A stretch of DNA of 64,000 nucleotides, from contig CP136065.1 in the NCBI GenBank assembly GCA_032622095.1, forward strand, positions 21,876,134 through 21,940,133. The letters run 5' to 3'. Made by a program: the position numbers and the translations under genes. Positions 29,071 to 56,645 of this stretch are shown piece after piece. The notes beneath the pieces were generated by a model. That model was not told where the DNA came from. It was given only the letters and a program-made list of their open reading frames with translations, and made no database searches. Source of the DNA: Siphonodentalium dalli (taxonomy: Eukaryota > Mollusca > Scaphopoda > Gadilida > Siphonodentaliidae). Position 1 is the first letter of the stretch. Every line of letters starts with the position of its first letter.

Positions 29071-29072
29071 CT

Positions 29073-29650
29073 TGGCCCATGTCCACCCTCCCACGCATTT
29101 TCTGCTAGCCAGGGTGTCAACAATAACAATTGTTTGTGACCCAGCAATCGTCTTCGTTGATAAGCGCTGTGTCTTAACCATTAAATCTCGCATAGAAAAC
29201 AAAATAAACTGCAGTTGATTTCGTCTAATGTATACTCTTACCGTGTTTGACTTATAAAATGGTCGTGAATATATATAGGAATATATGGTTGCAACATTCT
29301 TCTGTTTACTGGAATTAAATTTCGCCCTACGAGCCAGAGACGAACATCGGTAAGTACAAGTATTACACAATTATTTTTATGTGTACATATAGTCATGCCT
29401 ATAAATAGGAGGCTCATAACAACCATAACAGCCCCATTGTTCAACTTGACACCATACCACTGCGGTTGGTGTGTTGCATACACCAGAAAATTATATCGTG
29501 ATTCCATGTTCTAAGGAGGCGCCACATTCGTAAGTTTTTCATTATTAAAACATGTCTCAAATACAATGTACATGTGTCAAAGATACGGGCGGCGTTGGCG
29601 GTGTGTATGCTGTTAAACTATTGTTCTTATAGCAATCAGAAATATCACAT
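29073..29650 (-). repeat. Second copy of the LINE 5' end, head to tail with the full element
   Basis: This segment matches 39949-40531 with only a few substitutions and one deletion of about 9 bp. On the minus strand it comprises the 5' UTR and the first about eight codons of ORF1 (start ATG near 29095), then diverges at 29073. It begins exactly where the first copy's AATAAA and (AT)n tail end. See the LINE entry for interpretation. Confidence 0.85.
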
Positions 29651-30154
29651 ATATATATCTTTATTGCCTCCTTCTATGGAGATATTGAATATATTACACT
29701 AATATGTACAGAAGACAGTATATTTTGTGATATGGTTTCTTAGAGAAGAACATTAATATTGAAGGTATTTAAGATCAGAATGCTTGCCTATGCGTCAGAG
29801 TGTAAAAGGAAATACTCACGATGGATGCGACCAACTGTCATTGGTAGGACGAAGTGAGTTATATACTTCGGTAAGTGATAAAATGTCGTGCGTGACAGAC
29901 AAAAAAACAAAAAAAACAACAACAAAAAATTGTAGGAGGCGCAAGTTGAATCAATGTTGATATGCCTTCAATATATACTGTAAGCAAGATTTCAAGTTTT
30001 ACATTGTTTACAGTGTGATACAAATGCGAGACATTCTGAGCTTAAAGGAAGATACAATATAAGTAAAGAATTCTATGTTTTTGGTATCTCACATCCGTAT
30101 GGTCGGAAGTAAGTTTCGTAGGTCATCTTCTAGCAGATCCTCTTATCGACCTAG

Positions 30155-30390
30155 TCATTGCCAGTGGTCAATCTGCCATGTGATGCGTGGATCATCGGAA
30201 CCAAGGAGCAGAGCATATAAATCACATCTTGGGAGGCTGTCGAGATATGTACTGACGGAAATTCCATGGTGGTTGATTATTGTGTCCCATAAGTGATTTC
30301 TCAAAGCAAGAATAAACATGGAAGTGCATGAATATAAGGCATGGTCAATTTCATTGTTATACACATATAAACATTGTTGGCACGTTAGGT
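30155..30390 (-). pseudogene. C-terminal CCHC zinc-finger segment of LINE ORF2, out of frame
   Basis: In a different frame from the reverse transcriptase, CQQC, then His nine residues later and Cys four residues after that, make a C-x2-C-x9-H-x4-C motif, as is common at the C-terminus of ORF2 proteins of many LINEs. It continues LRNHLWDTIINHHG to a stop at 30155. The reverse transcriptase frame stops at 30385, so a one-base shift near there separates them. Confidence 0.65.
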
Positions 30391-31938
30391 TGTTGCAATA
30401 TGTTGTCTGTTCAACAGAAGGGCAAGGTTTTTCAGTTTAGCGGATGCTCGTGGATAAGACTGGAGCATCTTCCAAATTTTCCACCCGGATAGTGGGTCTT
30501 GAATAACTTTTCCAAGGATCAATAAATTGTCATCCAATGAAACTGAATTCCTCCAGTGTTCGGCGTATTTAATTATTACAACGTTCTTAACAATAGTTTT
30601 CCAAGATTTTAGATCTGGAAAGGATCCGTTCAACATGAAGTTTTCAAGATGGGACTTAAGGCCATATTCATTAAGTATGGGGAAAATCTCCGAAACAAAA
30701 CCGCTTACTGGCCGACGGAAGAGGCTAAACAGGTGTGCCTTAAATATGAACAGTTTCAGTGGTATCTGTTTTTCTGGAGGAAGATGGATCAGACTTCCGA
30801 GGAAACATAACTTCCGAATGTGAATTTCCCTCTGAATTGGAAGAAGTCCGACTAAGCCAAGAGTGAGCTTGGTACTTGCTCTCTTGGGTAGTGACTGTGC
30901 AAATTTGGCGCACGTTCTCAGTGACCGCTCCATGGTGGCGATGGCTGTTCTGCTGTCAAGAGAAGTTACATCACACCCGTAGAGTGCTCTAGGCAACAAT
31001 ACAGTCTTCAGAAGATGACACATTGTCAAGGGTGTTGCACATTTCAGTAGTGCATTGCCGATAACAGAGAAGAAATTTTTCCTCATTTTTGAGGACACGG
31101 TGGAGGCACGAGACGAGTAGTTTGAGAACTTATTCTGGAGAACACCGAGATGGATACATTCCTTCTCTTCTCGTATGACACTCTCTCCAATCTCCCATTG
31201 TCTGTGCGAACGATTGTAGTGAGATTTGCTTTCATTGAAAACAACAATGAGACTCTTCGTGCAAGAAAACTTGAATCGCCATTGGACACTATATGCGTGG
31301 CACATGCTGATAAGATTGTCTAAGCCGGACTTGGTGAGAGAAAGAAGGGCTATGTCATCGGCTGTGGTCGGTGCAACACATGCCACTGAGTTTATATTCA
31401 TACCGAAACGTGAACCACTCAATTGAATCAACAAATCGTTAATAAAGATAAGGTAAAACAGAGGTGAGAGAACGACTCCCTGTCTTGTTCCTTGTCCAAT
31501 GTGAAATTTATCAGAAAATTTCCCGTTGTATAACACAATGCTCGCATTGTCAGTGTGCATATTTGAGAGAAGTCTTATGAATTTACTCGGAAATCCAAGG
31601 TTCATAAATTTGAATAATAGTCCCATGTGCCAGACGCGATCAATCGCTTTTTGTGAGTCCAAGAATGCAACAAACATTTGTGTGTCGTGATCTCTGGCAT
31701 ATGAAATTGCTTCTTGAAGTATAAACGACGTCATGTTGCAGCCTACACCTTTTTGGAAACCGTTGTGTAGTGCACTCGGAAAATGTTCGAGGTAGTTGCT
31801 GCAAAGTATTCGTTTCAGGGTGATCGCCTCGAAAAGTTTGTAGATAACCGGAAGCAGGGTAATTGCTCGGTAACTGTCTGGTAATATTGCTGACTTTGGG
31901 TGTCCCTTATACAATGGAATAACGACACCTAATTTCAT
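30385..31938 (-). CDS. LINE ORF2, reverse transcriptase part
   Basis: The open frame is 517 residues from MKLGVVIPLYKG; homologous sequence starts a few codons earlier (DDYIPQE). RT motifs in order: SYRAITLLP (22-30), GFQKGVGC (60-67), FLDSQKAID with the first catalytic Asp (92-100), GTRQGVVLSP (150-159), and TADDIALL with the catalytic Asp pair (192-199). The residue before ADD is Thr where Tyr is the rule in YADD, which probably lowers or abolishes activity. The C-terminal region (about 280-517) matches the usual thumb and tail length. It lacks the N-terminal RT segment that normally links to the endonuclease. The enzyme would copy element RNA at a nicked target. Confidence 0.88.
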   Translation of the reverse strand: MKLGVVIPLYKGHPKSAILPDSYRAITLLPVIYKLFEAITLKRILCSNYLEHFPSALHNGFQKGVGCNMTSFILQEAISYARDHDTQMFVAFLDSQKAIDRVWHMGLLFKFMNLGFPSKFIRLLSNMHTDNASIVLYNGKFSDKFHIGQGTRQGVVLSPLFYLIFINDLLIQLSGSRFGMNINSVACVAPTTADDIALLSLTKSGLDNLISMCHAYSVQWRFKFSCTKSLIVVFNESKSHYNRSHRQWEIGESVIREEKECIHLGVLQNKFSNYSSRASTVSSKMRKNFFSVIGNALLKCATPLTMCHLLKTVLLPRALYGCDVTSLDSRTAIATMERSLRTCAKFAQSLPKRASTKLTLGLVGLLPIQREIHIRKLCFLGSLIHLPPEKQIPLKLFIFKAHLFSLFRRPVSGFVSEIFPILNEYGLKSHLENFMLNGSFPDLKSWKTIVKNVVIIKYAEHWRNSVSLDDNLLILGKVIQDPLSGWKIWKMLQSYPRASAKLKNLALLLNRQHIATT

Positions 31939-33100
31939 TTCTTGAGGGATATAATCGTCCTTCTGAGACCCACTTTTTGTACCGAGTTTTCAAAGTTGAT
32001 TTCATAGTGTTAAGATTAGAATTCCAGTATGCTTTCAAACGAGGGTTGAAACGTTTCACGGGTACAGAATTATCACATGAACTGATGATAGCATTCACAA
32101 TGTCGTTATAAAATGAAGAGATCGATTCGTTGGTAGATATGTCACATGTAAATGGGCTGGGACAGAGGCTGTCAAGATTACTTTTATATACCGAAATGTC
32201 TGCTCGCTCCCATGCATAACGCTTCCGCGAGGTATGCAACGAGTTGGATGTCAGTTCTGTATCTAACAAGATAGTACATGAGACAGGCAGATGATTTGAT
32301 GTGTTCAAAGCAGCATCGTGAATGATTTCGCAATTGCAGACCATATGCTTTATAGATTCTGGTATCAAGATGTGATCTATAAGAGATGGTCTGTTCACAG
32401 TATAGTAAGGATGAAATGAGTAGTTACTCCCTACACACATAGTTAGTGTCATTGCCGATACCATTTCGCACTGATCAAGAAATGTAGAGAAGAGTTCCGT
32501 CCGTACACTCATTGGTGTGGCCCGTGGTGTGTGAGTAGCCTTTTGCATGTGAGCATTAAAATCTCCCATTAAGACGACTGGCCCAAGCGACGATAATCTG
32601 TCGTTTGTATTTTCTAACATTTCAAGATAGCCTTTGAATATATCATCTCCGTGATTAACATTTGGGAGGTATAGTTGAATCACAGATACTGAACATGCAT
32701 TGTTTATTCGCAGCTGAATTCCCACTAAGCGTTCGTCGTCGATGTCAATTTCCACGCACTTGTGAGAAATATCATTACGAACAATAATTGCTACACCGTC
32801 TCTGACATATTCGGACCCAGTTGACGTCTTTATTGTTCTTCCGGGCTTACATATATAGCGGTACTTGGTGCTGAGTGAGTGTATAATGTCTACATTTTTT
32901 CCACTCACCCAATGTTCTGACAAACCCACTACGTGGTAGTACTCTCTATCGAGAATATCTGACAAATATGGCGAACTGTTCTTAAACCCGGTTGCATTCC
33001 AGGAGAGAAATCTGAGTTCTGTTTTATTTTCCATGATAGGTTTTATGAGACTCGGTACGCCATGGCCTACAGTAAGCCCCTGCTGGCCAGAAACCGTCAT
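31907..33100 (-). CDS. LINE ORF2, AP-like endonuclease part
   Basis: The frame is 397 residues with the exonuclease-endonuclease-phosphatase fold motifs in order: FLSWNATGF (31-39), LSEHW (60-64), DGVAIIVR (101-108), IQLYLPN (141-147), LMGDFNAH (177-184), SLIDHILI (239-246) and SNHLPVSC (268-275). This domain nicks target DNA to prime reverse transcription. The ORF overlaps the end of ORF1 by 77 bp in another frame; a later ATG (about 33034, MENKTELRF) is an equally good start. Near 31955 the sequence RYKKWVSEG runs into reverse transcriptase sequence in a different frame, so a linker probably of 100 residues or more has been lost. Confidence 0.88.
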   Translation of the reverse strand: MTVSGQQGLTVGHGVPSLIKPIMENKTELRFLSWNATGFKNSSPYLSDILDREYYHVVGLSEHWVSGKNVDIIHSLSTKYRYICKPGRTIKTSTGSEYVRDGVAIIVRNDISHKCVEIDIDDERLVGIQLRINNACSVSVIQLYLPNVNHGDDIFKGYLEMLENTNDRLSSLGPVVLMGDFNAHMQKATHTPRATPMSVRTELFSTFLDQCEMVSAMTLTMCVGSNYSFHPYYTVNRPSLIDHILIPESIKHMVCNCEIIHDAALNTSNHLPVSCTILLDTELTSNSLHTSRKRYAWERADISVYKSNLDSLCPSPFTCDISTNESISSFYNDIVNAIISSCDNSVPVKRFNPRLKAYWNSNLNTMKSTLKTRYKKWVSEGRLYPSRNEIRCRYSIV

Positions 33101-34038
33101 CCCCTAACGGATAACTTTGGTCTTCGATAACATTCAGTTGTGCGCACATTGTGTCCTTTCGAGAACTTTTCATAAGTTTCAGGTACTTTGGAATGACACC
33201 TCTCTCCGTGAGATAAGTTCGAATGCCATAGTTGGATGAACTAGGGTCGATGCCTCCAATGTAAAAACGAAGCGATTTATTTCTGACAACACCAGAGAAA
33301 CCGTCTTTGTTGCTACTCGGATTTTGCTTCTTGTTCTGAATTAGTGCACGACCTTTCGATTGTGAGGTGCCACCCGAGTACGTTGCATAGCACTGGTCAC
33401 TTCGAACAATGGTTCTGATAGGCTCAGATATGTTTGGGGGTACCGCGGCATCAACATGAGGAGGTGGATCATGTATCCTACATGTAATGTTTTCACTGTC
33501 TCGAATCATATCACCATCAATCGAACCAATGTTCGTAGGACGATGTGACGGAGGAGCACTCGTTGCAGACATATATGGAATAAACTGGCCAGGAAGAGTC
33601 ACAGGTCCTACACCTGGAGGTACAGGTTGTAACGGAGGCGCCACACCATTCAGGAATGTGGGCATGTGGACGTTAACTGGTGGACGAAATATATATGGCA
33701 TATGTTGCTGAAATCCTCGTTGAGTTATCGGGATAGATGAAACTGTTTGCCCGGCGATTGGAGGCTGATTTCCCTGTGTGTTAACCCAGGCTGATGAAGA
33801 TGTAACGGAATGGTAAGGTAAGTATTCCTGTTCAGAGTTAACATGTGACGGTATATTGGAAGAATTGTGTCTATCAGAATCACCAACAGCTTGTTTACTT
33901 GGTTGTACCGCACCGGTGAAAGAACCATGTAACATTTCGTTATTTATGTCATCCGGTTCAAAATCATTGGTCGACGCTTTGTAAGTATCCCTGTTATGAG
34001 AGACCATAGTTTTAACAGTTGTAACAGGTGACGAGTAA
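33024..34038 (-). CDS. LINE ORF1, C-terminal half
   Basis: Open from the transposon junction at 34038 to a stop at 33024, about 337 residues. The first two thirds are Pro/Ser-rich linker. The last 90 residues (SLRFYIGGIDPSSSNYGIRT ... MCAQLNVIEDQSYPLGDDGF ... WRTESHKTY) look like a compact nucleic-acid-binding domain, with a FYIGG start that recalls an RRM-type beta strand. The N-terminal half is at 38980-39971. The frame is the same on both sides of the insert, so the gene was open before the insertion. Confidence 0.7.
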
Positions 34039-34042
34039 TTAA

Positions 34043-34494
34043 GGTTACACTGGTGTAAATATTTCCCATAGGCTTCAATGTTAACGTTTGTTGATCTGCA
34101 TCAGAGGTCAAATGGAAACTGTTCAAACTGCCTTCGGATTATGTGAGCTTGACATCTGTGGAAACTTTCCCAATAAAAAAATCAACACCGTCTAGCAGGG
34201 AATCCACTTCAAATTTTCGTTTTTTCATAACTAGGGTCAGTTCCGCACTAAAAAAATATTGTCATTTTTTCAATCACACTTAAAATTTCTAAACAGCCAC
34301 AACAGACTTCACCTTTAATGAATGGGCCTCTTGGCAAATGAAGTTTGTGGGAGAATGATTCCTTGAATTTTTGTCAACAGTTTACATTTAATTCATGCAA
34401 CCAATCACAGCCCAGAGTGTTTTAACTGTGAAACTCTATACTCCTCCCGCAACCGCAGGGGGGAGCTGGCTATAGTATTTACACCAGTGTAACC
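34043..34494 (+). repeat. Left long terminal repeat of the TTAA transposon, itself inverted-ended
   Basis: 452 bp, starting GGTTACACTGGTGTAAATA and ending with the complement. It matches the right repeat base for base apart from one T in a T-run. It has no ORF of note. On its own it has the shape of a MITE, flanked by TTAA on the left and TAAA on the right. Confidence 0.88.
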
Positions 34495-35432
34495 TAAAGG
34501 GCCATGTGGCCTTTCTTCATATTTTTTGTGCATAACCCATTGTGAACCTTGATATATACCTATAATTATTAAACTGATGTTGTTTTTAAAAAATGTGTTT
34601 TTAATGCCATGTGACCCTTTAATTGGAACCCACCCAATAATACACCAATTCAGAATAAAAAGCCAAAATGCAGGTTGGATTTGAGTTTAATTTAATAATA
34701 TGAGGCATCTAATAAAGCATGAGAAGTTATACCACATTCATTTGATCAGGTTTTCACTTGGCTTTCATCTGTTGTGTCCCATGAATTTAATTTCTCCACA
34801 GGAACAGATATGCACAGGTTTCATTTAACCCTATGCAAATCAGCTGCAGATTCACACAAAAAATGCCTTTACTTTGAAAAATAAATAGTGTGGAGGGTTC
34901 ATTAGTCAGTAAACTTGGCATAATTTTGAAGAACAATTACTACTTGTCCCAAAATCAGAAAAATTAAGTGGAAAATTATTTAAACAATGAGCTCAGACAA
35001 GGGTGTTTTAACCCTGGGTCAGGTGAATTTTCCTGATTGAAAATGGTGCTAAAATTTGTAATGTCTGCTGCAATCCCAATTAGAAGGAATCCTTAATCTA
35101 TTGTCTCACAGTATCAAATGTCGTTAACTAACATTGGACAGGGGGTGCCAATGATGAGGTTATAATGACAACATGTTCCTTCAGCTGATAAAGTAGTAAT
35201 ATATCAACAGATAAGATGGCAGACATTTTCAAGCATCATTAATTTCAAAACTCCTTAAAAGCAAGGTGCTGATCTCAGAACGGTTAGTTGTCATCATTTC
35301 TCGAGACAAATATCATTTCTGATTGTAAAAATTCTGGAAGTTGTATATTCGCGAGAAGAATTTTCCAAATTAATGCTGTTAACGTGACAGAGTTGTTGAG
35401 TGGATTTTGGAATTTGTGAGGACTGTGAGACA
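34495..35432 (+). other. 5' non-coding region of the TTAA transposon
   Basis: AT-rich sequence between the left repeat and the transposase. It should contain the promoter, but no unambiguous TATA or initiator element could be singled out. Confidence 0.4.
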
Positions 35433-35683
35433 ATGAAGTTTACATTTGATAATCCCCTCAGATTCAAACCAGGACACAAACAGTTGTATAAAGCCAAGCG
35501 AGAACCATATGTGGATAACAGAGTAGTGAAACATTTACGCAAAAGAACGATCATTACATCACTGGACATTCTCGAAAAGCCAAACTCTGTGAGAGCACAT
35601 CAAACTCGGTCTGCTGCAAACAGTCTTAATCCAAGAGGGAAGGGTCAATCTGACAACAAAGAGCCTGAAAGAAAAAATGAAAG
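35433..35683 (+). CDS. DDE-type transposase, exon 1
   Basis: The first ATG after an in-frame stop is at 35433 (MKFTFDNPLRF). The exon encodes 83 codons plus two bases: a basic N-terminus rich in Lys/Arg (HKQLYKAKREPY, KHLRKRT), possibly DNA-binding or nuclear-targeting. The donor AAAG|GTAAAC at 35684 is followed by a 564-bp intron with acceptor AATTTTCAG ending at 36247, and the phase (two bases) fits exon 2. This intron is the reason the frame seems to stop at once. Confidence 0.7.
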
Positions 35684-36247
35684 GTAAACATCTCTCACAA
35701 TATTCCATGCGACAAACAATGTTATATGCATGTTCTTTTCATCATATAGATAAGAAATAGGGGGGGTATGAAATTCAGCATTATAATATCAATAAACTAA
35801 ACATATATTTGATCTTCTGAAATCAAGTGTATGACTTTAAAATCTTTTTTCAAAATCTTGGCTGTGTCCTCCTGCATGACAAAAAAAATTAATTTGACAT
35901 GCCCCCATACCTCTGTGTGCAGGAAATGATTTGAAAACTGTACCCTGAGTCAAAACACAGGTTTTCAGCCTAATAATTTGCAGATAGAGTTACTCCCCTT
36001 ATTCTGTTCATATGAATTGGGTCACTAATTGCAAACAGCACAGGTATAACATTGCTTTGCATGCAGATATATATAAATTAAATTGCAGCACTGTGAGTGC
36101 TTTAGTTTACTATTCATTCAAAGGACTGTTTGGAGCAGGCAGTGTTTTTAAAGAAAAAAAATATCTCACAGTTAGACCGATATGTATGTACCTTTAATAT
36201 ATATGGTTAAAAGAGTAAAATTTAGGATTTTAATTTTTAATTTTCAG

Positions 36248-36980
36248 AAATGATAGCCCAGACAAGAGATGTGTCAGTGGTTGGCAATGCGAATGCGGAT
36301 CAAACAGGGTGGTCAATATACGCCGAAATGCGATGATGTGGAACTCTTCCTTCGAAAAACATAAGGCATATAAACCCACGTGTACAGGATTCCTATACTG
36401 GGACATGAACGCTGAGGAAATTCGTGGAATTGGATGTAGAGAGAAAATGATTTGCACGTGTTGTGATTTTAGATCTGAAATTTTCAACCTGTATGATGAA
36501 ATTATAACAGGGAACCGTGGCAGGAGACCAGCAAAACCAAATGTTGGACTTTCAGTCGGATTATCTAAACCACCCATTGCAGCAGGAGGATTCAGACGCA
36601 TATGTGCAAGTGCTAATATTCCCCCGCCAGCCGAAAAGTCAATTCAGAGCACAGCAAATAAAAGTTTACCAAAAATTGAGGAAATAAATAAAAAGGATCT
36701 CCGAGAAAGACGTTCGAAACTCATACATAAACAACAAACTGATGGAAAGAAGAGTCCACATATCATCGACGCACAGGCAGATGGACTTTATAATAATCCG
36801 ATTTATTCTGGGTGTGGCAGAAACCCATTTCAACCAAGCACTCAAGTTATATACAGTGTTGTTGAAAATCTAACGCCGTCACATGACATTATTGGACTTG
36901 TGGTGCACAACAAGCTTTGTTCGAAACGCAAACACCTGAATAAATGTGATAATCACACATGTGGGAAAGACTTTCGCAAC
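36248..36980 (+). CDS. DDE-type transposase, exon 2, first part (frameshifted near 36970)
   Basis: From the acceptor the frame reads a Cys-rich segment (CVSGWQCECGSN, CTGFLYWD, GCREKMICTCCDF) likely to bind zinc. It continues with PPIAAGGFRRICASANIPPP and INKKDLRERRSKL, then IDAQADGLYNN with the presumed first catalytic Asp (about 36780) and FQPSTQVIYSVVEN. The frame breaks around 36965-36985, where KCDNHTCGK continues in the next frame. This copy therefore needs a shift for full-length product and is probably inactive. Confidence 0.75.
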
Positions 36981-38028
36981 GATTCCATTTGAGAAGAGCA
37001 TCGGCGATGAGAGAACATGGGCGAAAGAAGCATTTGGTGAAATGAAAACCAATAGCAATATCGAGATTGGTCACCTTGTTACTGATCCCGATGCAGCGGG
37101 CTTCAAAGGCTGTGAGGATCTCTATGACGAAGGAGCAACAGCGACCAGACCAACTCATCAACTGGACTCAGCTCATGTGTCGAGAAACCATCGGAAATTC
37201 ATCAAAAACCATAAGACGCTGCCAACTCTCATCGCTGGACCTGACCTAAAAAGCAAATCAAAACTGATAAATAAACTCGCAATGAACATTTCTGATCGAT
37301 GTCAGGGTGAATTGACATCTGCGGGAAAGCATTTCAAAGCCAAAGCTGAAGGAATGAAGAAACATTTACTGAATGTGAAAGAAGCAATAGTGAAGTGTTT
37401 CCAAAACTCCCATGTTATGTGTAAAAAATACTCATATCTGTGCAAGGGAACGAAAAAATCCAACTGGATCGTTAAAAATGAAACTGTGCTAGGACCCAAA
37501 TTTACGATCAATAAAACTTCGGACTGTTCGGATATTCTCACGGAGTGTGTTGACTACAGACTGTGTCCACAAATGATTGACAAGACTTTTCTTGGCATGA
37601 ACACGCAAAAAGCCGAGGCATTCAACAGAGCAATTCGGGTATCTCTGCCCAAAAATGTGACATTTACCCGAAATGTTAGTGGGCGTGCACATTCAGCTTG
37701 CCATTCCACAAATGTAGGCTGTGGGAATTCCATATCTGTGTTGTGTAAAGAACTTGATTGTGAGATTCACCCAAGATCAAAAGTGTCCAAAAGACTTGCA
37801 GCAGTGCAGAAGGCTGGAAATGACTTGAGATCATATAAAATGACCAAAAAGTCCAAACGGGCAAGAGTGGACAGGAGGGCAAAGTTATATGCTCTCTACG
37901 ACAAACATAGTGAGGAAATTGCCTATCAGAAGGATATCATGATTCCACCTGAAGCATGTCCCAAACAGTTAAAGGAACACACATACACTAAGTCATCCAA
38001 GTGGAAAAGGGTTAAACCAAGGAGGTGA
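36946..38028 (+). CDS. DDE-type transposase, C-terminal part
   Basis: 360 residues open to TGA at 38028. It contains HLVTDPDAAG with the presumed second catalytic Asp (residue 47 or 49), HVSRNHRKFIKNH, and NTQKAEAFNRAIRVSLPKNV with the presumed catalytic Glu (residue 224), then FTRNVSGRAHSACHS and a Lys/Arg-rich tail. I recall similar proteins from invertebrate genomes as transposase-derived. The DDE assignment rests on motif order, not on a search. It ends 20 bp from the stop of the convergent endonuclease. Confidence 0.75.
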   Translation: MIITHVGKTFATIPFEKSIGDERTWAKEAFGEMKTNSNIEIGHLVTDPDAAGFKGCEDLYDEGATATRPTHQLDSAHVSRNHRKFIKNHKTLPTLIAGPDLKSKSKLINKLAMNISDRCQGELTSAGKHFKAKAEGMKKHLLNVKEAIVKCFQNSHVMCKKYSYLCKGTKKSNWIVKNETVLGPKFTINKTSDCSDILTECVDYRLCPQMIDKTFLGMNTQKAEAFNRAIRVSLPKNVTFTRNVSGRAHSACHSTNVGCGNSISVLCKELDCEIHPRSKVSKRLAAVQKAGNDLRSYKMTKKSKRARVDRRAKLYALYDKHSEEIAYQKDIMIPPEACPKQLKEHTYTKSSKWKRVKPRR

Positions 38029-38048
38029 AATGTACCTTTCTCTTTAAC

Positions 38049-38447
38049 TCAAATCAGACAAAAGGGTCTATGTGCCCTAGTGCAACATTTCTGTCCCTCG
38101 CAATGGCGTCGTTCAACATTTTTTTCATGGCTTTCCATAACAATGTGGTCGGGATTTACACATGTCTTCCTATGGCATATGTGACTAAGTTCGAGACTGC
38201 CAGGGTAATAGGCGGGTGGAGACATCGCGAGTCTGTGTTTTATGACGAATGCTATTCGGTGGACACCCCAATCCTTTCTCGGCTGACCGGGCTCATAATT
38301 ATTACTCGACGGGAACTTGACATATAAATATCCATAACCGTCCTTTCTTGTCCGACCTGTCCAAACGCGACAGTCGAACAACCCCTCAAATCTCGATTTT
38401 TCGGATAATTTCGCATTGTAAAAATCATAAAATTGACTCTCCTCCAT
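38049..38447 (-). CDS. His-Me finger (I-PpoI-type) homing-endonuclease-like protein
   Basis: A complete 132-residue frame, ATG at 38447, stop at 38049. After an early Cys26 in CRVWTG and the VHRIAF segment comes the active site: SH at 88-89 (general-base His89), Cys91, Cys96, His101 (zinc) and Asn110 in HEKN (metal ligand). The steps +2, +7, +12 and +21 from the His equal those of the His-Me finger homing endonuclease I-PpoI. A second zinc site is formed by Cys116, Cys121 or 122, His126 and Cys130. The protein would cut double-stranded DNA. It is convergent with the transposase and inside the transposon, so it is cargo or a mobility helper. All key residues are present, unlike the frameshifted transposase next to it. 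Confidence 0.85.
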   Translation of the reverse strand: MEESQFYDFYNAKLSEKSRFEGLFDCRVWTGRTRKDGYGYLYVKFPSSNNYEPGQPRKDWGVHRIAFVIKHRLAMSPPAYYPGSLELSHICHRKTCVNPDHIVMESHEKNVERRHCEGQKCCTRAHRPFCLI

Positions 38448-38528
38448 GTTTATTCACTTGTATGACTTAAATGTGTGTTTAAAAATTGGATTTGGGACAT
38501 GCTATCAGGAACTGGATAAATACCTTTA

Positions 38529-38979
38529 GGTTACACTGGTGTAAATATTTCCCATAGGCTTCAATGTTAACGTTTGTTGATCTGCATCAGAGGTCAAATG
38601 GAAACTGTTCAAACTGCCTTCGGATTATGTGAGCTTGACATCTGTGGAAACTTTCCCAATAAAAAAATCAACACCGTCTAGCAGGGAATCCACTTCAAAT
38701 TTTCGTTTTTCATAACTAGGGTCAGTTCCGCACTAAAAAAATATTGTCATTTTTTCAATCACACTTAAAATTTCTAAACAGCCACAACAGACTTCACCTT
38801 TAATGAATGGGCCTCTTGGCAAATGAAGTTTGTGGGAGAATGATTCCTTGAATTTTTGTCAACAGTTTACATTTAATTCATGCAACCAATCACAGCCCAG
38901 AGTGTTTTAACTGTGAAACTCTATACTCCTCCCGCAACCGCAGGGGGGAGCTGGCTATAGTATTTACACCAGTGTAACC
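38529..38979 (+). repeat. Right long terminal repeat of the TTAA transposon
   Basis: 451 bp, same orientation as the left copy and nearly identical. Flanked by TTTA on the inner side and TTAA on the outer side. The inner junctions of the two repeats mirror each other (GTAACCTAAAGG and CCTTTAGGTTAC). Confidence 0.88.
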
Positions 38980-39971
38980 TTAACACGGCGCTTCGGAGTA
39001 GAATGCATAGGCGCGACTGAATGTCCTCGGTCTGGTGTCACGGTCTCTGACTTATCACTTTGAGTAGATTCAGATACAATTGGGCGATCAGGGTGCGAAT
39101 GTACATAGAGCTTATGTTGTACTTTTGGTGATTTATTGGAAATTATTTCACTGCTGGTTTCACCACGAGTCTCTGGGTTCAGTTTATTGGAAGTTTTGAG
39201 CACACCTCCTTTTTCGAGAGAAAGAGTTGGTGAATCCATATGTGTGAGTGAGCGGTCATCAAGCTGCATAGTGTCTTTAATGAACACACACACGTCGTTG
39301 TATTTGTCAGAGGTGCTCTGAGCATAAAGCTCAAACGCTTGAGCCATGTTCCTCGCCGTTTTGTCGATGTAATTGTTTGTGGAAGTCGTTGTGTCTTTAC
39401 ACTTTCTGCCGAGTTGTGATATTTTAGATTCTAGAAGATTGGTTTTTGATATAGTTTTTGACATCTTAGTGAACTTAGAATCTAAATCGTTCTGAAGCTT
39501 TTCACAGCAATCTTTGTTAGATTTTATATCATCTGACAACAGTTTAGCTTTGGAACGGAGATTTGTTATTCCAGCACACCGTTCATCTGTTAGTCTGTCC
39601 ATGTCCATTCGCATGCTGGACTGGTCCTCAATCAACACAGAAACCTCATCGGACACAGATTTGATAGATTGACGAACATCGTCGAACAGTTTAGAGTTAT
39701 TTGCCTTCGTGAGTGTTAATTCTGACAGCACATCGCAAAGCTTTTCCTGGAGGCAGATAGAGTTACATTGACACACTGTGCTTTGTGTCCGCTGCTGATT
39801 AGATGTTTCATGTGTGCTTTCATTTGCCTGGCCTGACTTAAGTCGTTGTGTAGTTTTGGAGATCATGTCACGGATATCATCGAATGAGCCACCGTTTATG
39901 AACTGAATGAAACCATATACATCTCTTGCGAGCTTCGTGGTAACTGGGCCCATGTCCACCCTCCCACGCAT
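38980..39971 (-). CDS. LINE ORF1, N-terminal half
   Basis: Starts at ATG 39971 after a 5' UTR of about 560 bp, and is open for about 330 residues until the transposon at 38979. Residues 100-220 form a long coiled coil (KLCDVLSELTL ... VLIEDQSSMRMDMDRL ... SKTISKTNLLESKISQLG), as expected for a LINE ORF1 protein that trimerises and coats RNA. Beyond 38980 the apparent frame runs four codons into the insert before a stop. Similarity in the coiled coil to the ORF at 21406-22395 shows a second, related family in the window. Confidence 0.75.
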
Positions 39972-40531
39972 TTTCTGCTAGCCAGGGTGTCAACAATAAC
40001 AATTGTTTGTGACCCAGCAATCGTCTTCGTTGATAAGCGCTGTGTCTTAACCATTAAATCTCGCATAGAAAACAAAATAAACTGCAGTTGATTTCGTCTA
40101 ATGTATACTCTTACCGTGTTTGACTTATAAAATGGTCGTGAATATATATAGGAATATATGGTTGCAACATTCTTCTGTTTACTGGAATTAAATTTCGCCC
40201 TACGAGCCAGAGACGAACATCGGTAAGTACAAGTATTACACAATAATTTGTATGTGTACATATAGTCATGCCTATACATAGGAGGCTCATAACAACCATA
40301 ACAGCCCCATTGTTCAACTTGACACCATACCACTGCGGTTGGTGTGTTTCATACACCAGAAAATTATATCGTGATTCCATGTTCTAAGGAGGCGCCACAT
40401 TCGTAAGTTTTTCATTATTAAAACATGTCTCAAATACAATGTACATGTGTCAAAGATACGGGCGGCGTTGGCGGTGTGTATGCTGTTAAACTATTCGCAC
40501 TTTGTTCTTATAGCAATCAGAAATATCACAT

Positions 40532-41414
40532 AAGCAGTATGTTATTGTCAATTCCCCACCCCCTTTGGTATGTAAACAATAGCAAAAAAATAAGTTTCCT
40601 GGTTTTTGTTTATATCCGGATATGGTAAACATAAAGAGCGTTATTTATTACTGTTTTCCTGATATGGAAATAATAAAGAGCGTTTATATCATTTTCTGAG
40701 ATTAACCAATATAATTGAGTTGTGTTATGTAAACAGAAGCACAACTTATGTAACACGAACAGGCTCTTGTTTACGTACACCATCGTACGTCTTGATGACA
40801 ATATAGTAAATTCTCAACAACTAATTCAACCAGTTTTAAAAATATTTCCAAAATAAATATGCTTTTGTATCTTTGATACGCATAATGGCCTTTCCTGGAT
40901 ATGTTCATATTATCGCAACACCGCGAAAAGACAAATTAAAAAAAACATTAATGGTACTATTAGTTAACAGCATCAATTTGCCTAACATCATCAGAGCAAT
41001 TCAGCAGGACCCAACGGCATCATAGCAGATTAGCAGGACCACTTGGCCAGGGGTGATATATATTTGTTCTAGTCCGAGTAGTCTAACTTTGATGTAAAAT
41101 TGTTGTTATTACATTACACAAATTCCACCCACCGTCTTTTCTTATTATCCCTATGATCATTGTAATCACATAACACTGTTCAGTATCTCGTTTTATTGAT
41201 TAGTCACACCAATTTGACATTCCGGTGTGTCAGCAAGTGGAGAACACACCAATCAATGATTTGTGATTGTTATGATAATAGCTGGGGAATATTTTAATAT
41301 TCCACAGTTATTGTTCAAATAATGCACAGTTATTGTCACCAGCGGGTAATCGGCTGAATATTGTGCAAGGGAGAACAATAGAAAATATGGCGACTGTGGT
41401 TTAATATTATATAA
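40532..41414. other. Non-coding stretch, nothing recognised
   Basis: A short phrase AATAAAGAGCGTT occurs twice near 40632-40685 and resembles the GCTCTTTATT units at 14889-15011 on the other strand. No exon signal was found. Confidence 0.4.
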
Positions 41415-54280: not shown

Positions 54281-54835
54281 GTAATAGATATGAATTTGAG
54301 GACACCGGTCTGGAACAGCTATCAATTTTATATAAATTCCAGGATATAATATAATAGATATGAATTTGAGGACACTGGTCCGGAACAGCTATCAATTTTA
54401 TATAAATTCCAGGATATAATATAATAGATATGAATTTGAGGAACCGGTCCGGAACAGCTATCAATTTTATATAAATTCCATGAAAAAATATAATAGATAT
54501 TAATTTGAGGACACCGGTCCGGAATAGCTATCAATTTTATATAAATTCCAGGATATAATATAATAGATATGAATTTGAGGACACCGGTCCGGAACAGCTA
54601 TCAGTTTTATATAAATTCCAGGATATAATATAATAGATATGAATTTGAGGACACCGGTCCGGAACAGCTATCAGTTTTATATAAATTCCAGGATATAATA
54701 TAATAGATATGAATTTGAGGACACCGGTCCGGAATAGCTATCAATTTTATATAAATTCCAGGATATAATGTAATAGATATGAATTTGAGGACACCGGTCC
54801 TGAACAGCTATCAATTTTATTTAGAATTTCTTACG
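54281..54835 (+). repeat. 70-bp satellite-like tandem array, 8 units
   Basis: The unit contains ATATGAATTTGAGGACACCG, GTCCGGAACAGCTATCAATT and TATATAAATTCCAGGATATA. Unit starts are spaced 69-70 bp from 54291 to 54781. Units are over 95 percent alike by eye, so expansion is recent. A palindromic ACCGGT lies in each unit. Minus-strand open frames here are repeat artefacts. Confidence 0.9.
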
Positions 54836-55404: not shown

Positions 55405-56645
55405 TGTGCCAGTGAATTCTCTTATATATACGCGAGTCTCCCAAAGGAGCCTCACAATACTCCCACGTACAAGAGAATACATAACTATTTACCTTGACCT
55501 CGGCACCTCGCAAGCCAGTACATTCTCATATATGTGAGACTCCCTATGGAAGACTCCCATATATAAGATACATAACTATTTACCTTGACCTCGCAAGCCA
55601 GTACATTCTCATATATGTGAGACTCCCTATGGAAGACTCCCATATATAAGATACATAACTATTTACCTTGACCTCGCAAGCCAGTACATTCTCATATATA
55701 TGAGACTCCCTATGGAAGACTCGCATATATAAGATACATAACTATTCACCTTGACCTCGCAAGCCAGTACATTCTCATATATGTGAGACTCCCTATGGAA
55801 GACTCCCATATATAAGATACATAACTATTTACCTTGACCTCGGCACCTCGCAAGCCAGTACATTCTCATATATATGAGACTCCCTATGGAAGACTCCCAT
55901 ATATAAGATACATAACTATTCACCTTGACCTCGCAAGCCAGTACATTCTCATATATGTGAGACTCCCTATGGAAGACTCCCATATATAAGATACATAACT
56001 ATTTACCTTGACCTCGCAAGCCAGTACATTCTCATATATGTGAGACTCCCTATGGAAGACTCCCATATATAAGATACATAACTATTTACCTTGATCTCGC
56101 AAGCCAGTACATTCTCATATATGTGAGACTCCCTATGGAAGACTCCCATATATAAGATACATAACTATTTACCTTGACCTCGCAAGCCAGTACATTCTCA
56201 TATATGTGAGACTCCCTATGGAAGACTCCCATATATAAGATGCATAACTATTCACCTTGACCTCGCAAGCCAGTACATTCTCATATATATGAGACTCCAT
56301 ATTGAAGACTCCCATATATAAGATACATAACTATTTACCTTGACCTCGGCACCTCGCAAGCCAGTACATTCTCATATATGTGAGACTCCCTATGGAAGAC
56401 TCCCATATATAAGATGCATAACTATTCACCTTGACCTCGCGAGCCAGTACATTATCATATATGTGAGACTCCCTATGGAAGACTCGCATATATAAGATAC
56501 ATAACTATTCACCTCGAGCTCGGCACCTCGCAAGCCAGTGCATTCTCATATATGTGAGACTCCATATGGAAGACTCACATATATAAGATAATGCACTGGC
56601 ATAGTATCTTTAGTGCTGCATCAGTGCAACCATCACAAAAGGGTT
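55405..56645 (+). repeat. 83-bp hairpin satellite inside a TTAA-family MITE
   Basis: The left edge is TGTGCCAGTGAATTCTCTTA (55408 on) and the right edge GCACTGGCATAGTATC ... AAAAGGGTTAA, both from the TTAA hairpin MITE family. Between them are about 14 units of 83 bp: ATACATAACTATTTACCTTG, ACCTCGCAAGCCAGTACATT, CTCATATATGTGAGACTCCC, TATGGAAGACTCCCATATAT. Some units carry an extra 9 bp (CGGCACCTC). Each unit is a hairpin plus spacer of the parent element. Units are nearly identical. Confidence 0.9.

Follow-up and report, generated by a model that had tools for sequence, protein, structure and literature searches.

The 64,000-nucleotide stretch of Siphonodentalium dalli DNA analysed here (the window) carries a 4,937-bp transposon (34043-38979) with an intact I-PpoI-type nuclease that is under purifying selection, and by its anatomy, its gene families and the other features tested this element is almost certainly a young member of KolobokP, a lineage of the Kolobok superfamily, as described in the available text of Kojima and Bao (2022, Mob DNA 13:24, PMC9587614). 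The first-pass annotation of the window had read the nuclease as intact cargo of an animal DNA transposon, and this part of its reading agrees with the KolobokP anatomy and with the Mutator/Kolobok-type transposase that adjoins the nuclease gene; it overlooked the direct-repeat composite structure of the element, its tandem arrays and the 2022 publication on KolobokP.

The limits of the element emerged when the window was set against other loci of the genome (2.2 Gb in nine contigs), and TTAA is present on both sides of it. The layout is LTDR-INT-LTDR (long terminal direct repeat, internal region, long terminal direct repeat), with the transposase gene and the convergent nuclease gene inside the INT, as listed in Table 1. 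The two LTDRs align with 0 mismatches and 1 gap, and every LTDR has its own inverted ends, GG...CC, in which 19 bp match. The element is not a simple inverted-repeat transposon, since it is bounded by direct repeats (452 and 451 bp), each with its own inverted ends.

Table 1. Features of the transposon and its flanks (window positions)
Feature	Position	Strand	Basis or remark
Left target-site duplication, TTAA	34039..34042	.	Host frame of 670 codons is continuous once the element and one TTAA are removed
Left LTDR, 452 bp, ends GGTTACACTG...CAGTGTAACC	34043..34494	+	Boundaries recur in other copies
INT, 4,034 bp, first bases TAAAGG, last bases CCTTTA	34495..38528	+	
Transposase, predicted first coding exon	35433..35683	+	ATG and GT-AG junction in the sequence; splicing inferred
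Transposase gene, predicted intron, 564 bp	35684..36247	+	GT...AG, frame maintained across it
Transposase main exon, Mutator/Kolobok type	36248..38028	+	Pfam PF20700; frameshift near 36971 in the window copy
I-PpoI-type His-Me finger (His-Cys box) nuclease, 132 aa and stop	38049..38447	-	Convergent with the transposase; Pfam, I-PpoI match, alignment
Right LTDR, 451 bp	38529..38979	+	
Right target-site duplication, TTAA	38980..38983	.	

The 670-codon open frame that is restored by excision lies on the minus strand, and the transposon therefore sits within ORF1 of a non-LTR retroelement, whose next ORF matches an endonuclease family and whose following ORF is reverse transcriptase-like by eye. 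The interrupted retroelement occupies 29071-34038 and 38984-40532 of the window on the minus strand, and its 589-bp start region (39944-40532) has a 98% alike repeat at 29071-29651, like a second head-to-tail copy. Self-comparison of the window also gave two blocks of short-period tandem repeats, 54282-54828 and 55477-56590, with steps of ~70 and 83-91 bp. Target duplications of 4 bp are readable at seven of 15 loci: TTAA twice (the window copy and L010) and TTAT, TTCA, TAAT, TAGA and TATA once each, the last at L009, which is a multimer. The flanks of L020 have only TA in common, and at the seven remaining loci an end is truncated or variant or the duplication is unclear. The earlier emphasis on TTAA sites thus describes the window copy and L010 and is too strict for the element elsewhere.

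Nucleases of the His-Cys box (I-PpoI) group have eight Cys/His zinc ligands, a catalytic His and Asn and a conserved Ser and Glu; they are encoded by group I introns and are dimers with a specific, semi-palindromic cut site. The 132-aa ORF of the transposon is an I-PpoI-type nuclease, by a match far beyond chance. The Pfam family zf-His_Me_endon, which had been suggested as a check, matches residues 29-126 with an E value of 3.6e-13 (50.3 bits; cut-off 27), and HNH_3 gives a match below threshold. Among solved structures I-PpoI is the best match (E 6.8e-4 with the single sequence and 2.4e-4 with an eight-row profile), and only I-PpoI entries reach E 0.001. The alignment with I-PpoI is ungapped from the SH that contains catalytic H89, through metal-binding N110, up to the Cys with which the second zinc site begins. 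Residues C26, C91, C96, H101, C116, C122, H126, C130, S88, H89, E105 and N110 are invariant in an alignment of eight nuclease rows, namely the window copy and seven others, four of which come from a second family, B (42-44% identical; below). The eight Cys and His residues among them are the presumed zinc ligands. The second zinc site, paired with I-PpoI residues by alignment, consists of C116, C122, H126 and C130, and C122 rather than C121 is taken as its second ligand because family B retains C122 and lacks C121. The minus-strand ORF, its I-PpoI-like spacing from catalytic His to Asn and its second C/C/H/C zinc site are thus where the first-pass annotation had placed them.

The window nuclease resembles I-PpoI (1evw, 1cz0, 1a73) in its active-site sequence and in the presence of the zinc ligands and catalytic residues, and differs from it in being encoded by a transposon and in length (132 versus 162-163 residues). 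An Rfam search of 34000-39000 at the gathering score gave 0 matches, so this interval contains no recognised group I intron. A protein search with the nuclease sequence alone returned zero matches, and a search with the eight-row profile returned four unnamed proteins at E <=0.01, the best at 6.2e-28. Two viral contigs, L059 (5001-5225) and L060 (5001-5201), encode remote relatives with 29-30% identity over part of the protein. Structure predictions of the nuclease were too poor for use, with mean pLDDT values of 33.9 for the sequence alone and 39.1 with five rows.

PF20700 matches both pieces of the transposase in separate searches (E 6.8e-32 and 2.2e-10), and a Mytilus trossulus protein is 50% identical to it. 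The gene probably has one intron, as predicted from its splice-site motifs. The frameshift is a 2-bp difference at 36971 and is private to the window copy (it is absent in 18/18 other loci compared). Stop-free transposase frames of 590-617 codons were found in 46 of the 113 matches scored elsewhere (113 of 559 candidates were scored), so that the picture of a whole nuclease beside a frameshifted transposase, as given in the first-pass annotation, is correct for the window copy and is not general.

According to the available text of Kojima and Bao (PMC9587614), KolobokP comprises 228 families, autonomous and not, with the following properties: the LTDRs are ~450 or 660 bp long and have their own short inverted ends, 5'-RR...YY-3', of up to 18 bp; the direct strand encodes a DDD/E transposase, and the complementary strand, further downstream, a His-Me nuclease; the transposases form a clade and have a CCHC finger after the first D; target duplications are 3-5 bp with no strong target preference; and there are solo LTDRs, multimers of the form (LTDR-INT)n and INT-INT junctions that have lost 3-4 bp. 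The window element belongs to this known kind because its anatomy, solo repeats and tandem multimers match: its LTDRs are 452 and 451 bp long, the DDD/E type of its transposase is indicated by the PF20700 and M. trossulus matches, its nuclease gene is downstream on the complementary strand, its target duplications are 4 bp and varied in sequence, and its family has apparent solo LTDRs, arrays and one exact INT-INT junction with a micro-deletion. A difference from the published description is in the inverted ends, which are 19 bp here.

The layout is also reminiscent of bacterial composite transposons and IS26-like pseudo-composites, in which two direct copies of a mobile end unit that can move alone surround a cargo; in KolobokP, by contrast, the transposase lies in the cargo and not in the end units, and the layout is that of a lasting lineage (PMC9587614, available text). 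The role of the nuclease awaits experiment according to the same authors. Judged by title, no other on-topic literature was found on Kolobok or His-Me nuclease transposons in animals. Relative to the available text of PMC9587614, in which the word "purifying" has 0 occurrences and neither selection on the nuclease nor one INT in two LTDR families nor arrays this long are reported, what is new here is the selection test, a 57-LTDR array and the finding of one INT in two LTDR families.

Is the nuclease gene maintained in other copies of the element? Among 150 scored nuclease matches (of 443 candidates), 81, the window copy included, are full-length and open (132 residues, at least 89% identity, stop-free), so the ORF does recur with the element across the genome, as the first-pass annotation had proposed should be checked. 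It is gap-free in 22 of the 23 copies that align at at least 90% coverage (the window and array copies included); the 23rd, L012, has one unaligned base, yet shows no indel in a separate locus comparison and is listed as open. Open frames alone prove little, because most aligned copies are ~98-99% identical, and cysteines are altered in some copies (L037, L053). Values of dN/dS were calculated by the Nei-Gojobori method for nine pairs, which share ancestry and are not independent. For the nuclease they are 0.14-0.19 in five of the nine, the most diverged, and ~0.24-0.38 in L019-L018, L022-L055, L019-L021 and window-L019, where changes are few in most. Nuclease dS and dN are 0.211 and 0.039 for L019-L022 (Fisher p 3e-5), 0.313 and 0.044 for L019-L055 (p 2e-7) and 0.158 and 0.023 for L019-L029 (p 1e-4); the corresponding transposase values are 0.075 and 0.012 for L019-L022 and 0.104 and 0.027 for L019-L055. 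Both genes thus look constrained. The nuclease is under purifying selection rather than in neutral decay, and it therefore does something for the element.

The nuclease has accumulated 2.0-3.4 times the silent divergence of the adjacent transposase in seven of the nine pairs, in which the A group (L019 or the window) is compared with other subfamilies, and the excess gave p values of 0.0085, 0.0012 and 0.0073 in the three pairs tested; the ratio is only 1.2 for L022-L055, and the two sequences of window-L019 are too similar for it to be judged. Comparisons of the window nuclease (38049-38447) with L018, L021, L022, L029, L055 and L057 are included in this excess. One possible reason for it would be an exchange of the nuclease in the past of the A group; no sharp recombination edge between nuclease and transposase was resolved in the coarse windows used. 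A locus at C9:208.97 Mb (nuclease 91% and open versus transposase 72% with 11 stops at the protein level) had raised the possibility that in old copies the nuclease survives longer than the transposase. This was rejected because the DNA divergence of L055 from the window runs in the opposite direction (8% in the nuclease versus 4% in the transposase); the low protein score is a frame effect. An older group of nucleases lies at C9:208.956-209.024 Mb, several of them ~8.7-9.5 kb apart and in both orientations, perhaps as a segmental array.

Family B (L027, L028) has a nuclease that is 44% identical to that of the window and that retains all eight zinc ligands and the active-site residues, and its gene order is unchanged. 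Its direct repeats are 450-451 bp from GG to CC ends (self-matches of 457-459 bp include shared edge bases), its INT ends are TAAAGC...GCTTTA, and a piece of its transposase is 62-64% identical in L028 and in two more family B nuclease copies among the matches scored.

The element also occurs in tandem arrays. By hand count, 36 of the 81 intact nuclease copies are in seven same-strand clusters (at least three copies, steps <7 kb), for example eight units with a 4,495-bp step on contig C2 and 12 units on contig C8. One 448-codon transposase frame is present in 12 of the 13 matches listed on C8 (the other is partial) and at two other loci, and its sharing on C8 points to local amplification from one founder. 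The genome contains 934, 4,393 and 560 exact left ends of LTDRs A (that of the window element), C and B, respectively, and among the first 100 of each listed in contig order 76, 68 and 12 are in clusters of at least three by the same rule; the lower share of family B may reflect age, since exact matching misses diverged copies. Single exact left ends make up 10 of the 27 clusters in the first 100 LTDR A places listed and are candidate solo LTDRs. The largest array is satellite-like and contains 57 exact left ends of LTDR C within 80 kb (C1:445718-525116), and none of the 150 scored nuclease matches lies in it. Four of its steps are ~900 bp longer than the others, which, from left-end positions, fits an LTDR absent between two INTs; one exact INT-INT junction, with a 3-bp loss, was found in the genome. 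A rough control with the integrase family PF00665, weak because it scores 150 of 4,228 candidates of mixed families, gave one cluster, of three, with 9-kb steps (limit 10 kb).

The longest arrays have a 1,353-bp unit, which in the unit sampled (L031) consists of an LTDR and a 902-bp INT. This short INT has no similarity to the coding INT at the blastn level, although it ends in TAAAG...CTTTA. It is found within LTDR A at L031 and within LTDR C at L033 and L034, whose INTs share 94.0% and 97.8% identity with that of L031; LTDRs A and C are 60-63% alike. The unit of L032 reads LTDR A, TTTA, LTDR C, INT, and its LTDR A, with TTTA on either side, appears to have inserted as a solo LTDR at the edge between INT and LTDR C; the L031 INT is nearest to that of L032 (99.2%). 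Pieced together from several loci, this suggests that the ends of an INT would be swapped stepwise, a nested LTDR inserting first and the old one being lost afterwards. Such replacement, by the transposase only, accounts for the module-exchange data as well as the rather unlikely idea that LTDR and INT are shuffling modules with the nuclease as their engine, in which cuts at LTDR ends would allow the copying of an INT between different LTDR families, or its retention with them (INT homing).

How might the two enzymes produce these structures? The transposase moves whole units and solo LTDRs, as their structure and family say, mostly with 4-bp target duplications. The nuclease would break DNA in an LTDR or at its end, and repair against another LTDR would add or restore an LTDR-INT unit and so build tandem arrays, which corresponds to the "induced unequal crossover" published for KolobokP arrays (PMC9587614, available text). 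We infer that the nuclease cuts DNA, the position at which it does so and that cutting drives the arrays, and we give this recombination model roughly an even chance. Family B, which has the nuclease but few arrays, argues against it, and so do the longest arrays, whose 1,353-bp units have no room for either gene and would need a nuclease supplied in trans. Arrays could also arise with no nuclease at all, by spontaneous unequal crossing-over of the long direct repeats. It is less likely, in our estimate, that the nuclease opens a circular intermediate at joined LTDR ends for integration, an option raised in the available text of PMC9587614, with ordinary unequal crossover between direct repeats yielding the arrays as a side effect. 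A near-palindrome, TTACACTGGTGTAA, lies within the inverted repeat, just inside each LTDR end of families A and C, and abutting ends would form a larger one; it is a candidate only, because shuffled sequences yield 0.7-1.0 such hits per LTDR, and the family B end is below the palindrome threshold. (Another near-palindrome, at 34077-34088 in LTDR A, was rejected as a shared internal TTAA-centred cut site, because families B and C lack it.) LTDR ends do abut at 23 places, 17 with a 4-bp TAAA/TTTA spacer and five of the remaining six with TAAATTTA. We rejected these as circle junctions: the spacer of L032, at one end of the largest abutted group, reads as a target duplication made by a solo LTDR and so shows no circle, and the other groups were sampled at L033 and L034.

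The purifying selection on the nuclease would also be expected of a selfish passenger that cuts nuclease-free LTDR or INT copies and copies its own INT into them, with little benefit to the transposon, and the silent excess in seven of nine pairs would fit exchange of nucleases between subfamilies. We regard this as improbable: the ratio is only 1.2 in L022-L055, window-L019 is too close to judge, the coarse windows showed no sharp recombination edge, and there are many more LTDR left ends than intact nuclease copies, so that most LTDR sites are unfilled. A decaying relic, open only through the youth of the family, would account for the near-identity of most copies, the altered cysteines and the higher dN/dS values in four of the nine pairs; the predominance of silent changes in the more diverged pairs and the complete set of zinc ligands and active-site residues in the distant family B nuclease make it extremely improbable, provided that the alignment frames are right.

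A transposon that encodes a homing-type nuclease beside its transposase is unusual. With its many intact, near-identical copies, a divergent second family and arrays of great length, this genome is a good test bed for nuclease-driven tandem amplification.
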